Shown piece by piece: positions 23,421-27,703 of a DNA stretch of 38,103 nt. The stretch covers positions 1 to 38,103 of the forward strand of contig CAJQRD010000057.1 in the NCBI GenBank assembly GCA_905480605.1, given 5' to 3'. Source of the DNA: an uncultured Saprospiraceae bacterium (GTDB lineage: Bacteria > Bacteroidota > Bacteroidia > Chitinophagales > Saprospiraceae). The number at the start of each line of letters is the position of its first letter. Position 1 is the stretch's first letter. The translations under genes were made by a program, and so were the position numbers. The notes under the pieces were generated by a model. The model did not search any database and was not told the DNA's origin. It worked only from the letters and a program-made list of their open reading frames with translations.

Positions 23421-24836
23421 ATGAAGCAAACATTTCAAACAGCCCTTTTGGCTTCGATAATCAGCCTTGCCTTTATAGGGCTCTATCATCTTTGGCACAA
23501 AGAACATGTGATTGAGATTGAGGAAAACTATGGCAAACTGGTTGCTAGAGCTGAAAACAGTTCGTTAAGGGACAGATATTTTAAGGATGAAAATTTACAT
23601 GTCAACTTTGTAGAAGCTGCGAAAGCCGCAACGAATGCTGTAGTAGCAGTCAAAGCTATTCAAATAAAAGGAAATAGTTTTTCGAAGAATAAGTACTTAA
23701 AAGTCAACGGATCTGGTGTAATTCTTTCATCCAATGGATATATTGTCACCAATTACCACGTCATTGAAGATGCTGATGATGTTGAAGCGTTGTTGGGAAA
23801 TAACCGTGAGTATAAATGTAAGGTTATTGGATTTGACCGCTCTACAGACTTGGCTTTGCTTAAAATAAATGAAGAAGGTTTAGATTACCTTGAATTTGGT
23901 GATTCTAATACGCTAGAAGTTGGTGAATGGGTATTGGCAGTAGGAAATCCATTCAAATTACATTCCTCAGTAACTGCAGGAATAGTCAGTGCTAAAGCCA
24001 GAGACATTAATATTTTTAATAAACAAGGTATAGAATCTTTTATACAAACGGATGCTGCTATTAATCAAGGTAATAGTGGAGGTGCGTTGATTAACACCAA
24101 TGGTTATCTTATTGGAATAAACACTGCTCTATTGACTATTAGCGGAAAGTTTGAAGGTTTTTCATTCGCTGTCCCAAGTTCTATTGTTAAAAAAGTTGTA
24201 GACGACCTTAGAGAATATGGTGCTGTACAAAGAGCATGGTTAGGAATTTCAGCATTGGAAATAAATGAAACGAAAGCAAATGATCTAGGTCTTCCACATG
24301 TGGGTGGTACATTGGTTGGAGGTGTAGAAAAAGAAGGTGCAGCTAAAGATGCTGGCTTACAATCCGATGATGTTATTTTAAGTATCAATGGTCAGAAAAC
24401 AACTTCAAGACCACAGTTCTTGGAAATGATATCACAAAGAAGGCCTGGAGATGAAATACTAATTGAGTATTTTAGAAAAGGAAAGAAAAGTAGTACAATT
24501 GCTACGTTGAAAAATCAATTGAATACAACAGATTATATTGCAGTTAGAAAAGATAAGATCTTAACAAATCTTGGTTTTACATTACGTGATTTAGATACAT
24601 CAGAAAAATCAAAATTGAAAACAGAAGGTGCTTTGGTTGTGTCTATCACTAAGAAAAGTAAAATATCTGTAACAAATATGGATCAGGATTATATCATCAC
24701 CTCAATAAATAATGAGAGCGTTACTACAGTTGATGATGTTGTGAAAATTTTAGAAAAAACGAAAGGACGAGTAGAATTAAAAGGCTTCTATGAACTTTGG
24801 CCAGGAGATTATCCTTATGTCTTTGAGATAAATTGA
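23421..24836 (+). CDS. Deg/HtrA-family serine protease with two PDZ domains
   Basis: Periplasmic quality-control protease of 471 aa. An N-terminal hydrophobic segment (about 7-24, LLASIISLAFIGLYHLW) acts as signal or anchor. The trypsin-like domain has His113 (VTNYHVIEDADD), Asp143 (RSTDLALLKI) and Ser219 (NQGNSGGALIN). PDZ1 covers about 262-355 (AWLGISALEIN, then GAAKDAGLQSDDVILSINGQ). PDZ2 (about 370-471) is more divergent and ends in VFEIN. This is the usual DegP/DegQ layout. It is a single gene; the methionine leader begins about 60 bp after its stop, and no terminator of its own is obvious. Confidence 0.93.
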   Translation: MKQTFQTALLASIISLAFIGLYHLWHKEHVIEIEENYGKLVARAENSSLRDRYFKDENLHVNFVEAAKAATNAVVAVKAIQIKGNSFSKNKYLKVNGSGVILSSNGYIVTNYHVIEDADDVEALLGNNREYKCKVIGFDRSTDLALLKINEEGLDYLEFGDSNTLEVGEWVLAVGNPFKLHSSVTAGIVSAKARDINIFNKQGIESFIQTDAAINQGNSGGALINTNGYLIGINTALLTISGKFEGFSFAVPSSIVKKVVDDLREYGAVQRAWLGISALEINETKANDLGLPHVGGTLVGGVEKEGAAKDAGLQSDDVILSINGQKTTSRPQFLEMISQRRPGDEILIEYFRKGKKSSTIATLKNQLNTTDYIAVRKDKILTNLGFTLRDLDTSEKSKLKTEGALVVSITKKSKISVTNMDQDYIITSINNESVTTVDDVVKILEKTKGRVELKGFYELWPGDYPYVFEIN

Positions 24837-24895
24837 TCAATAGTTAATTAAACTTTAAATTATCGTAAGTGGTAGGAATAATATAAATGCTTAGT

Positions 24896-24903
24896 GATAT
24901 TTG
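24896..24903 (+). promoter_or_regulatory. Possible -7 element for the methionine operon leader
   Basis: GATATTTG, one base off TAnnTTTG, 19 bp before the first leader helix. It would start the transcript near 24909. No clear TTG lies 17-23 bp upstream. I find no other promoter-like sequence between the terminator and the first start codon. Confidence 0.3.
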
Positions 24904-24908
24904 AACGA

Positions 24909-25036
24909 GAAAAGAAATAATGATTGTAAATAATTATATGATGTGTTCAATGTACTTCCTTAAAGGGAGACGATAAACACATGGATTAATTACAATCTAA
25001 AAAGGCTTATCGTTAATATGATAGGCCTTTTTTTAT
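24909..25036 (+). ncRNA. Structured leader RNA of the osmC-metZ-metX operon (candidate attenuator or riboswitch)
   Basis: Three nested helices are visible. P1 is GATTGTAA (24922-24929) with TTACAATC (24990-24997), 8 bp. P2 is ATGTGTT (24941-24947) with AACACAT (24976-24982), 7 bp. P3 is CTTCC (24955-24959) with GGGAG (24965-24969), 5 bp with one G-U. The intrinsic terminator at 24999-25034 follows directly, so transcription must read through it to reach osmC at 25065. CGATAA (24971-24976) is perfectly complementary to TTATCG (25007-25012) in the terminator's left arm and could act as antiterminator. The pairings are seen in the sequence; ligand control by SAM or another methionine-pathway signal is inference. 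It does not match the SAM-I or SAM-II cores as I know them. Confidence 0.5.
24999..25034 (+). terminator. Intrinsic terminator inside the methionine operon leader
   Basis: A 13-bp stem with one T-G wobble: AAAAAGGCTTATC (24999-25011) with GATAGGCCTTTTT (25020-25032), 8-base loop, then further Ts. It sits 163 bp past the deg stop and 32 bp before the osmC-like ATG, more consistent with attenuation of the downstream operon than with simple termination of deg. Confidence 0.8.
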
Positions 25037-25064
25037 TTACAAATTTTAAATTAAATCTAAATAA

Positions 25065-25487
25065 ATGCAAACTAAAATTACATTAAATCGACTTGATGAT
25101 CATGTTAACTTCGAAGCTATCAATTCTACAAGTAATACTATGTTAATGGATGGATCTGAAGCGATTGGAGGCAAGGGTAATGGTGTTCGTCCAATGGAAA
25201 CTTTATTGATGGGATTGGCAGGTTGCAGCGGTATTGATGTTGTATTGATCTTAAAGAAAATGAAACAAGTAATAGATGATATCAAAATTGAGGTAGTGGC
25301 TGATATTGAAAAAATCGATCACTACAAAAGATACAGCAAGATAAACGTTCACTTCGATATTTGGGGAGATATAAGAGAATCAAAAGTTGAAAAAGCCATT
25401 GAAATGTCAATGGAAAAGTATTGTTCAGTTTCTAAGACTTTAGAAAAAGCATCAGAAATCACCTCTTCATTTAAATTGCATTCTTAA
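25065..25487 (+). CDS. OsmC-family protein in the methionine operon
   Basis: A 140-aa cytoplasmic protein of the OsmC/Ohr superfamily, whose characterised members reduce organic hydroperoxides with two cysteines. Both cysteines are present: Cys54 in LLMGLAGCSGIDVV and Cys120 in MEKYCSVSKTLEKA. The motif GGKGNGVRPMETLL is typical of the YhfA-like branch. It is the first gene after the leader, and its stop is one base before metZ, so it is cotranscribed with methionine synthesis. A link to sulfur or thiol chemistry is likely, but its substrate is unknown. Confidence 0.88.
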   Translation: MQTKITLNRLDDHVNFEAINSTSNTMLMDGSEAIGGKGNGVRPMETLLMGLAGCSGIDVVLILKKMKQVIDDIKIEVVADIEKIDHYKRYSKINVHFDIWGDIRESKVEKAIEMSMEKYCSVSKTLEKASEITSSFKLHS

Positions 25488-25488
25488 T

Positions 25489-26652
25489 ATGAAATTTGAA
25501 TCTAAAGCTATACGCTTACAAACAGAAAAATCTCAATTTAGAGAACACAGCACACCGTTATATGCGACGTCTAGCTTTTGCTACGACAACGCAGAACAAA
25601 TGCGTGCTGTTTTCGCTGCAGAGGAAGAGGGATATATTTATAGTAGATTTATCAATCCCAATTCAACTGAATTTGAGACTAAGATGGCACAGTTGGAAAA
25701 GACGGAAGCATGTTTTGCTACGGCATCAGGCATGTCCGCTGTCTTCGCTAGCTTTATGGCATTTCTTAAATCTGGAGATCACATAATTGCAACACGAGCT
25801 ATTTTCGGATCTACTTATAGATTATTAAGTGTGTGGTTAACCAAGTGGAATATTGAACACACTTTCATTGATGGTTCTGATGTTGACTCTTGGATAAAAG
25901 CAGTTAAGCCAAATACAAAAATGCTTTACCTCGAAACACCATCCAATCCTGCATTGGAATTGGTTGATCTTGAAAAAGCTGGCGAGTTTTGTAAATCTCA
26001 CAATATTATTTTTAATGTAGACAATTGTTTTGCTACACCTTACATTCAAAATCCAGTTTACTATGGAGCGGACCTGGTAGTTCATTCTGCAACTAAATAT
26101 ATTGATGGACAAGGCAGAGTTTTGGGTGGTGCTGTCTGTGGAAGTCAAGATCTTGTCAATAACGTTAAAGCATTTTGTCGTGCGACTGGACCTTCATTGT
26201 CTCCTTTCAATGCCTGGATATTGTCTAAGAGTTTAGAGACTCTTTCTATCCGTATGGAAAAACATTCAGAAAATGCACTTAAGCTTGCACAGATACTTGA
26301 AAATACTAAGAAAATTAATTGGGTTAAATATCCGTTTTTGCCATCTCACCCTCAATATGAATTGGCTAAAAAACAAATGCTTTTAGGAGGAGGAATAGTA
26401 AGTTTTGAATTGACAGGAGGACTGAATGCTGGTAAACAGTTTTTGGATAACCTTAAGATGTTATCACTTACTGCAAATCTAGGCGATTCACGAAGCATAG
26501 CATCACATCCTGCATCAACTACACATGCGAAATTAACTGAAATGGAGAGACAAGAAGTTGGCATCACTCCTGGTCTCATTAGAATTAGTGTGGGGCTAGA
26601 ACATATTGCAGATATTAAGAATGACATTCTACAGTCAATAAATACACTCTAA
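25489..26652 (+). CDS. metZ: O-acyl-homoserine sulfhydrylase (MetZ-like), PLP-dependent
   Basis: Cys/Met-metabolism PLP enzyme of 387 aa that makes homocysteine from O-succinyl- or O-acetyl-homoserine and sulfide. It has the family YSRFINPNSTEFE (51-63; usually YSR-x-x-NPT), ETPSNPALELVD (149-160), VDNCFATPYIQNP and the PLP lysine Lys203 in VVHSATKYIDGQGR. The GQGRVLGG continuation is typical of MetZ. It sits one base after the osmC-like gene and one base before metX, which supplies its acylated substrate. The choice of acyl group is not readable from the sequence. Confidence 0.9.
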   Translation: MKFESKAIRLQTEKSQFREHSTPLYATSSFCYDNAEQMRAVFAAEEEGYIYSRFINPNSTEFETKMAQLEKTEACFATASGMSAVFASFMAFLKSGDHIIATRAIFGSTYRLLSVWLTKWNIEHTFIDGSDVDSWIKAVKPNTKMLYLETPSNPALELVDLEKAGEFCKSHNIIFNVDNCFATPYIQNPVYYGADLVVHSATKYIDGQGRVLGGAVCGSQDLVNNVKAFCRATGPSLSPFNAWILSKSLETLSIRMEKHSENALKLAQILENTKKINWVKYPFLPSHPQYELAKKQMLLGGGIVSFELTGGLNAGKQFLDNLKMLSLTANLGDSRSIASHPASTTHAKLTEMERQEVGITPGLIRISVGLEHIADIKNDILQSINTL

Positions 26653-26653
26653 G

Positions 26654-27703
26654 ATGACTCCAATCAAAAACCAGATGCCTATTACTCTAAAAGACTACAA
26701 GCTATTTGAAGTTGACGCTCCTTTTGAATTAGAAAATGGAGGCGTATTAAAGGAAATGACAATCGCATATCATTCTTACGGAACTTTAAATGACAAACGC
26801 GATAATGTTATCTGGGTTTGTCATGCACTGACAGCTAACTCTGATGTAGTAGATTGGTGGTCTGGTATCTTTGGAGAATCAAAATTATTTGATCCAACAG
26901 AGAGCTTTATAGTTTGTGCTAATATTATTGGATCATACTACGGGAGCACTGGGCCGAGAAGTATTAACCCAGATACTGGAATAGCATATGGGTTAGATTT
27001 TCCACTTGTTACAGTAAAAGATATGGCCAAAGCACATGTATTGTTGGCGAAGCACTTGGAAGTAAATTCAATTGAAATTATTATCGGTGGTTCATGTGGT
27101 GGCCATCAAGTTCAAGAACTGTGTTTGATTTCTGATGTTTCTATTCGCAATGCAATTATGCTAGTGACCAGTGCTAAGGAAACAGCTTGGTCGATTGCCA
27201 TACATGAGGCACAAAGATTGGCCTTAAGGGCAGATCAAACGTTTCAAGAGAATAATAATGAATCAGGGATAGATGGACTAAAGGCGGCACGTGGCATGGG
27301 ATTAATTGGATACCGTACTTTTGATCAATATATAAATCAACAAGATGATTTAGACAACCGTTATTCAGATTTTAAAGCCTCCAGTTATATCCGTTATCAA
27401 GGAGAAAAATTAGCCAAACGATTTCATGCTCATTCTTACTTTCACCTTTTGAATTCTTTGGATACGCACAACATTGGGCGAAATAGAGGAGGTTTAAAAA
27501 ATGCCTTGAGCTTAATAAAACAAAGAACGCTATTAATCTCTATTAACTCTGATATTTTAATTCCTGAAAGCGAACAACGTTTTATGGCAGATCACATACC
27601 TCAATCTAAACATGTGGTTATTGAATCAAAATATGGACATGATGGGTTTTTAGTTGAGACTGATAAAATCAGGAATATAATCCACGAGTTTTTACAGAAG
27701 TAA
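26654..27703 (+). CDS. metX: Homoserine O-acyltransferase, MetX family
   Basis: Alpha/beta-hydrolase-fold enzyme of 349 aa that transfers an acyl group (acetyl or succinyl) to homoserine, the first committed step of methionine synthesis. It shows IAYHSYGTLN (38-47), VCHALTANSD, IIGSYYGSTGPRSINPDTG, the nucleophile elbow GGSCGGHQ with Ser147, an Asp in SINSDILIPESEQ and the final His in KYGHDGFLVE. Most MetX proteins have GGSMGG at the elbow; Cys replaces Met here. It is the last gene of the three-gene operon. It converges on the DUF4097 gene after a 43-bp gap in which I see no terminator. Confidence 0.9.
   Translation: MTPIKNQMPITLKDYKLFEVDAPFELENGGVLKEMTIAYHSYGTLNDKRDNVIWVCHALTANSDVVDWWSGIFGESKLFDPTESFIVCANIIGSYYGSTGPRSINPDTGIAYGLDFPLVTVKDMAKAHVLLAKHLEVNSIEIIIGGSCGGHQVQELCLISDVSIRNAIMLVTSAKETAWSIAIHEAQRLALRADQTFQENNNESGIDGLKAARGMGLIGYRTFDQYINQQDDLDNRYSDFKASSYIRYQGEKLAKRFHAHSYFHLLNSLDTHNIGRNRGGLKNALSLIKQRTLLISINSDILIPESEQRFMADHIPQSKHVVIESKYGHDGFLVETDKIRNIIHEFLQK

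Follow-up and report, generated by a model that had tools for sequence, protein, structure and literature searches.

A putative leader-peptide attenuator with methionine and cysteine codons ahead of an osmC-metZ-metX operon in Bacteroidota

The leader that lies between deg and osmC in the window (the whole stretch of 38,103 nucleotides analysed here) is very likely a ribosome-mediated transcription attenuator of the trp/his type, which would read Met codons and one Cys codon. The signal is likely to be the charging of tRNA-Met (and of tRNA-Cys), sensed by a ribosome, and not a metabolite sensed by the RNA. In a first-pass annotation, this leader had been proposed as a candidate new methionine-responsive RNA; our results support a methionine-linked attenuator with mutually exclusive helices, but not a new ligand-binding riboswitch. 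The three genes behind the leader form, as judged from their sequence, an operon for methionine biosynthesis (Table 1). The metX-like product also matches PF00561 above cut-off, and the osmC-metZ pair was found repeatedly among 110 collected metZ loci.

Table 1. Positions of the leader features and of the downstream genes in the window.
Feature	Position	Strand	Remarks
Promoter-like GATATTTG	24896-24903	+	5 of the 6 fixed positions of TAnnTTTG; 16 nt upstream of the leader ATG
Leader ORF MIVNNYMMCSMYFLKGRR	24920-24976	+	18 codons; 4 Met including the start, 1 Cys; from sequence
P1, outer helix (GATTGTAA)	24922-24929 / 24990-24997	+	8 bp
Control codons ATG ATG TGT TCA ATG (Met-Met-Cys-Ser-Met), codons 7-11	24938-24952	+	From sequence
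P2 helix	24941-24947 / 24976-24982	+	7 bp
P2/P3 hairpin, putative protector	24941-24982	+	-14.5 kcal/mol computed for 24936-24986
P3 helix	24955-24960 / 24964-24969	+	6 bp
Antiterminator 5' arm GACGATAA	24969-24976	+	3' end is the leader stop codon TAA
Intrinsic terminator	24999-25038	+	15-pair stem (24999-25032) and U-rich tail; -17.5 kcal/mol
Antiterminator 3' arm TTATCGTT	25007-25014	+	Within the terminator 5' arm
osmC family gene (P0001)	25065-25487	+	PF02566, 69.2 bits (cut-off 27.5)
metZ, O-succinylhomoserine sulfhydrylase (P0002)	25489-26652	+	NF006003, 525.9 bits (cut-off 522)
metX-like homoserine acyltransferase (P0003)	26654-27703	+	Best NCBIfam TIGR01392 MetX, 337.5 bits (under the cut-off of 500)

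The leader ORF, situated in 24896-25064 and absent from the first-pass annotation, overlaps the helices listed there, and its stop codon TAA (24974-24976) makes up the last three bases of the CGATAA switch arm. Its codons (24920-24976) are ATG ATT GTA AAT AAT TAT ATG ATG TGT TCA ATG TAC TTC CTT AAA GGG AGA CGA TAA, so that Met or Cys accounts for four of the 17 residues after the start. Among 5000 dinucleotide shuffles of 24896-24998, an ATG-started ORF with at least four Met/Cys in eight residues arose in 0.12%, and 0.48% contained one in which three of seven residues are Met, the Met/Cys residues of this comparison having been picked once the leader ORF was known. Visual inspection revealed no Shine-Dalgarno-like sequence upstream of the leader ATG (24920). 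Three of the features that characterise a leader-peptide attenuator are found at this locus, namely a short upstream ORF with a start and a stop, clustered codons for the amino acids of the pathway, and a terminator between the ORF and osmC.

The folded structure of the leader is genuine and goes beyond chance. The RNA from 24880 to 25070 folds with -44.5 kcal/mol, versus -24.8 +/- 3.6 for shuffles (z -5.54), and none of 200 dinucleotide shuffles reached the stability of the native fold. Three nested helices of 8, 7 and 5 bp had been described at first pass, followed by a 13-bp intrinsic terminator ending 32 bp before the ATG, together with a perfect pairing of CGATAA (24971-24976) with TTATCG (25007-25012). 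All three helices are present, P1 and P2 with the lengths then given and P3 with 6 bp instead of 5, to which 24951-24953 paired with 24970-24972 add 3 bp more. The terminator is of the type and at the position described, its stem ending 32 nt upstream of the osmC ATG (25065), but this stem has 15 pairs; it is the one terminator-like site found in 24600-25300, where 0.1 was expected. The CGATAA/TTATCG pairing is indeed perfect, and with its flanking bases it reaches 8 bp (24969-24976 with 25007-25014).

As P2/P3 occupies part of the antiterminator 5' arm (24969-24972 and 24976), it can serve as a protector. According to our computations, P1-P3 and the terminator fold side by side when no ribosome is present, and a ribosome at the leader stop codon covers the antiterminator arm, the terminator alone being formed. 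For a stalled ribosome, the RNA was folded stepwise, its end being moved 4 nt at a time and the ribosome edge being fixed at 24964, which corresponds to a stall at codon 11 if the ribosome is assumed to reach 12 nt beyond the A-site codon. The antiterminator is then the most stable fold for RNAs ending at 25012 to 25024, and the terminator takes its place once the end reaches 25028. The equilibrium energies favour the terminator over the antiterminator (-20.0 versus -9.9), and the switch must therefore be kinetic and decided during RNA synthesis; in other attenuators too, the choice is made while the RNA is synthesised.

From the ORF, its codons, the pairings, the computed energies, the cognate genes and the recurrence of the plan in other genomes, we infer the start of transcription, the translation of the leader, the stalling and the response to methionine as follows. 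RNA polymerase would start shortly upstream of 24920, and a ribosome would enter the 18-codon leader. With ample Met-tRNA, it would reach the UAA (24974-24976) and cover the antiterminator arm, the terminator (24999-25032) would form and the operon would be off. With scarce charged tRNA-Met or tRNA-Cys, it would wait at codons 7-11, P2/P3 would be opened and GACGATAA (24969-24976) freed; the latter could then pair with TTATCGTT (25007-25014) as soon as this is transcribed, ahead of the terminator 3' half, which would allow readthrough into osmC-metZ-metX. Without any ribosome, P1-P3 and the terminator would form together and the operon would be off. There is a tension in this model. Methionine starvation should reduce initiation as well as elongation, and a slower initiation on the leader should favour the off state: how can a methionine leader then switch on? 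The Cys codons next to the Met codons might go some way towards explaining this, and we conjecture that these Cys codons, together with initiation near the 5' end, may matter here.

The plan of the window leader recurs in other Bacteroidia. Both strands were scanned for short ORFs with a stop at most 110 nt upstream of an intrinsic terminator, the main set comprising L131-L160 and L192-L339, which are 178 metX-centred loci from as many genomes. Three of these loci are shorter than 500 nt and uninformative, L131 starts behind the window's leader, and 58 (L131-L160, L192-L219) reach at most 1.5 kb either side of metX. ORFs with at least five Met/Cys in eight residues and a terminator, 17 in all, were found in 11 of the 178 loci (genomes G073, G077, G081, G108, G145, G149, G179, G235, G262, G307 and G421), and every one of the 17 stands upstream of a methionine or sulfur gene. 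The gene behind is metY in eight loci, with osmC-metZ additionally in G307; in G108, G149 and G262, which are sister species, it is a NirA/sulfite-reductase-like gene. Among the products named by family models (P0005-P0009), P0008 (L264) is MetY, above the cut-off; under the cut-off, MetY is the best family for the partly masked P0005 (L150), MetZ and OsmC for P0006 and P0007 (L307), and NirA for P0009 (L194). The remaining names come from similarity of the translations, the genes of G179 and G235 being 81 and 79% identical to P0008.

The leader peptides are very different beyond the Met/Cys run, as can be seen from MINQNKMMCCCCKSTERWKW (L192) and MIAFKSININMMMCCCMPINRPEQLYHIA (L264); they have a plan in common, not a sequence. 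Between sister species, the Cys run is retained and the codons TGT and TGC interchange, a pattern expected of a translated run. In G307 (L307), the terminator of the leader MNLTITMCMMYMCSPAKGPYACMP ends 24 nt ahead of osmC-metZ, and the distance from terminator to gene varies elsewhere, up to 210 nt in L247 and 342 nt in L329. Leaders in tandem occur in five of the 12 leader genomes other than the window's (G108, G149, G262, G235 and G307). G108, G149 and G262 belong to one genus, and their loci (L192, L194 and L198) hold two tandem leaders with terminators between metX and the NirA/sulfite-reductase-like gene. In the methionine cluster of L307 (G307:C55), a Met/Cys leader with its terminator lies ahead of osmC-metZ, and two more, likewise with terminators, stand in tandem ahead of metY, making three in all; metY is followed by the start of a metX-like gene.

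The order of the screens means that the Met+Cys criterion was fixed after the window and L150 were known: a Met-only screen of loci L131 upward gave no leader, the single-residue screen revealed L150 (under Cys), and the Met+Cys screens revealed the remaining leaders. Residue-pair enrichment was assessed by residue permutation over 339 loci and 1309 distinct ORF+terminator pairs, for residue pairs with a combined frequency below 0.2. Cys+Met came out on top, with 19 ORFs at five or more of eight versus 0.35 expected, a count made of the 17 leaders plus L071 and L082 (both judged spurious) and in which tandem and sister-species leaders are not independent; Asp+Glu was second (9 seen versus 0.35 expected). 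The window leader, scoring 4 of 8 Met/Cys, has fewer control codons than most comparison leaders. At a score of at least 4, 34 distinct peptides were found over 406 loci, of which 19 were accepted (the 17 scoring at least 5, the window and L344) and 15 were not, so that the case for the window draws on position, plan and genes in addition to the score. Those not accepted are L071 and L082 at score 5, then, at 4 or above, L029, L043, L048, L051, L092, L105, L295 (two) and L319, and, provisionally, L345, L352, L356 and L368.

For 18 leaders, the window included and L344 outside the set, the best duplex that the stretch behind the control codons can form with the terminator 5' arm was set against 300 mononucleotide shuffles, in which base composition alone is preserved. 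The p value is at most 0.1 in 15 of the 18, the exceptions being the window (0.19 for this leader taken alone), L296b (0.48) and L291 (0.81); L291 and L296b were retained as leaders despite their non-significant antiterminators. When combined by Fisher's method, zero p values being set to 1/300, the antiterminators give 6e-12 for all 18 leaders, 5e-12 minus the window, and 5e-10 over the 13 that keep one of the three sister species. The antiterminator starts 0-22 nt after the last control codon (15 nt in the window), and 17-39 nt separate the leader stop codon from the terminator (22 nt in the window).

Methionine genes are a textbook case of control by metabolite-binding RNA, namely by SAM riboswitches, among which SAM-I binds SAM directly. 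The leader could alternatively be a new metabolite riboswitch (for SAM, methionine or homocysteine) with P1-P3 as its aptamer and the terminator as its expression platform, as its three nested helices, stable fold, CGATAA/TTATCG competition and downstream methionine genes would allow. We consider this improbable. It was noted at first pass that no SAM-I, SAM-II or SAM-III core could be recognised, and Rfam bears this out: the whole window has no match at gathering thresholds, and the 10 sub-threshold matches at E<=10 over 24840-25100 include neither a SAM family nor any other riboswitch. A T-box match is likewise absent, both from the window at gathering thresholds and from 24840-25100 at E<=10. 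The nearest match to the leader is Bacteroid-trp (RF01692), membership of which was rejected on its 29.5 bits (gathering threshold 49) and on a leader ORF devoid of Trp codons. Furthermore, a riboswitch gives no role to the run of Met/Cys codons nor to a stop codon sitting in the switch arm, and the leader DNA is unrecognisable in relatives. In the 12 loci bearing comparable leaders, Rfam at E<=0.01 finds one SAM-I and one sub-threshold sRNA match and nothing else, and no match overlaps a leader itself; more such leaders may thus stay unnoticed in Bacteroidota genomes. The riboswitch reading of the window leader is probably wrong.

SAM-I riboswitches are nevertheless part of the same landscape. 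A strictly filtered search of 60 genomes, the window's included, found SAM-I in 37 of them; none was found in the window's genome, where a second search again gave none. In five genomes of the same genus (G001, G005, G007, G010 and G012), SAM-I (RF00162) stands directly upstream of metZ, at the place equivalent to that of the window leader. A mutual exclusion of leaders and SAM-I per genome was ruled out, SAM-I being present in 10 of the 13 leader-bearing genomes (11 of 14 once G528, in which no leader was found, is included), and the replacement of SAM-I by a leader is therefore not general. In G421 (L291, G421:C49), the reverse strand at about 2268-2597 carries a SAM-I aptamer scoring 59 bits and, directly behind it, an ORF ending in MMFGMCCCMC with its terminator, after which comes metY; SAM and the charging of Met/Cys-tRNA could possibly be sensed there in series.

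It is equally improbable, in our estimation, that the leader is an ordinary gap between deg and osmC, in which the hairpin would end deg transcripts, the ORF would be accidental and the operon would owe its expression to constitutive readthrough or to a promoter that escaped notice. This would agree with deg (23421-24836) having no terminator-like site in 24600-25300 apart from that of the leader, with the 15 of 34 peptides at or above the window's score that look accidental, and with the leader being unrecognised elsewhere in the genus. By DNA similarity, the matches listed from 100 related genomes were the leader itself and short terminator or AT-rich fragments; in the 14 genomes of the genus, the leader part matched itself and one terminator fragment, no orthologue being recognised in the 13 other genomes. 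The regions upstream of 110 osmC/metZ loci gave no homologous leader. In the terminator scan, which covered the 106 of these 110 loci with at least 100 nt upstream, only L008, L018 and L023, the window aside, have a terminator within 300 nt, and these look like the ends of preceding genes. In G013 (53% complete), the nearest relative with osmC-metZ-metX, osmC lies 4 nt behind another gene and there is no leader.

Several observations speak against an ordinary gap. The density of Met/Cys codons is improbable by chance here, and equivalent leaders precede methionine genes elsewhere, one of them ahead of osmC-metZ. Moreover, the absence of a promoter between the terminator and osmC, already remarked upon at first pass, is confirmed: there is no sigma-70-like site on the + strand between the terminator and the osmC ATG, and 25033-25064 is devoid of G, which makes TAnnTTTG, the Bacteroidota -7 promoter box, impossible there too. 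Ahead of the leader, the GATATTTG box has a shuffle p of 0.32 and is thus weak on its own; of 19 leaders examined for it, 6 have a perfect TAnnTTTG within 28 nt of their ATG, at a distance of only 4 nt in one case.

In two genomes of the same genus, G006 (L163, G006:C3) and G009 (L165, G009:C23), deg is directly followed by the osmC orthologue, without metZ-metX, an arrangement that also speaks for the ordinary gap. Compared with these, the leader of the window occupies the gap between deg and osmC, and the adjacency of the two genes may predate the methionine operon at this place.

A leader-peptide attenuator sensing something other than Met/Cys charging, for instance general translation speed or an arrest peptide, would suit an ORF that passes through structured RNA with Met/Cys at just 4 of its 17 post-start residues, but it is the least likely possibility of all, as the control codons fit the pathway here and in 11 loci, His codons fit hisG in the same genome, and the peptides vary widely beyond the Met/Cys run.

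Those His codons belong to a leader, MNFSHLHHHHFHTCYQARS, located upstream of hisG in the window's genome (L404, G000:C91; ORF 1190-1249, reverse), with TATATTTG 17 nt ahead of its ATG. The U-tract of the hairpin behind it, AACCCGTCTGAGTTTTCAGACGGGTT, is interrupted, and this hairpin was not picked up by the terminator scan. A His-rich leader ORF (at least four His in eight residues) is present in six of the seven hisG loci found among 30 genomes, five of the six being accompanied by a scan-passing terminator; the seventh locus, L400, has only a weaker candidate. The presence of His leaders before hisG, here and elsewhere, indicates that ribosome-mediated attenuation is very probably in use in the window's lineage. 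A different genus of the family has, in L116 (G029:C61, reverse 1515-1723), an ORF ending in NIHFHHHHAFVEHCKW and a terminator before a hisG-like gene.

Leader-peptide attenuation itself has long been known, with ribosome-mediated attenuators of the trp/his type in Proteobacteria and Cys leaders in Actinobacteria, the latter having reportedly been the subject of work by Canestrari in 2020. As in the trp/his attenuators, which are mentioned in the accessible parts of PMC1262725 and PMC8079986, the window has a leader ORF with pathway codons, a putative protector, a candidate antiterminator, a U-tract terminator and a biosynthetic operon behind; unlike in these Proteobacteria systems, the codons are Met and Cys, the host is a member of the Bacteroidota and no Shine-Dalgarno is visible. 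Bacteroid-trp (RF01692) is also a Bacteroidota peptide-leader RNA, and its alignment with the window finishes at a terminator start of the same AAAAAGGCUU type, but it is a Trp leader, whereas the window leader has no Trp codon and remains far under the threshold.

The metL leader of Streptomyces lividans (Actinobacteria), as presented in the accessible part of PMC8079986, ends in RCMCRRMCAF and precedes metNIQ. Like the window leader, metL is a leader peptide linked to methionine genes and containing Met and Cys, which in metL lie towards the end; unlike the window leader, it precedes a methionine importer and not biosynthesis genes, and has no typical terminator according to its authors. The Cys leaders of Actinobacteria have Cys codons in a short upstream ORF and lack an obvious terminator, and the same study found no RNA elements upstream of methionine operons in this phylum (PMC1262725, accessible part). 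In Rhodobacterales, uORFC-8-2 is an upstream ORF with Cys codons before cysS (PMC8632094, accessible part). These two differ from the window in having cysteine genes or cysS behind them, and the accessible parts of both sources make no mention of Met codons. In Bacteroides thetaiotaomicron, long 5' UTRs hold short ORFs 'reminiscent of leader peptides' (PMC7366714, accessible part). Methionine leader-peptide attenuators of Bacteroidota are not described in the accessible parts of PMC8079986, PMC4833913, PMC7366714, PMC2965389, PMC1262725, PMC8632094 and PMC13236596, and our literature search gave no report of Bacteroidota methionine leaders, although the attenuator survey of Lopatovskaya, Seliverstov and Lyubetsky (2010) may contain such predictions.

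We lean towards a Bacteroidia class of dual Met/Cys attenuators with varied sequences and perhaps more than one origin, in each of which a single short run of codons would serve to sense both sulfur amino acids. Its members would precede metY, osmC-metZ, metB-like or sulfite-reductase-like genes, in tandem in 5 of 12 genomes; the one of G421 would act behind SAM-I, SAM and tRNA charging being then sensed in series, and that of the window would stand where relatives of the same genus have SAM-I. If the window leader works as proposed, a tRNA-charging attenuator on methionine genes would show that one regulator can take the place of another on an unchanged operon, and a genus in which the same gene is preceded either by SAM-I or by a leader would be a case for studying such a swap.

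The metB-like gene is that of L344 (G395:C45), where the leader MINQQNMRMHSMCFLSEGPLACMR (score 4) and its terminator, at 1112-1242, are followed by this gene and, beyond it, by an apparent homoserine dehydrogenase, both genes being named by eye. The end of this leader, GPLACMR, resembles the GPYACMP of the G307 leader, which is the site of the antiterminator arm.
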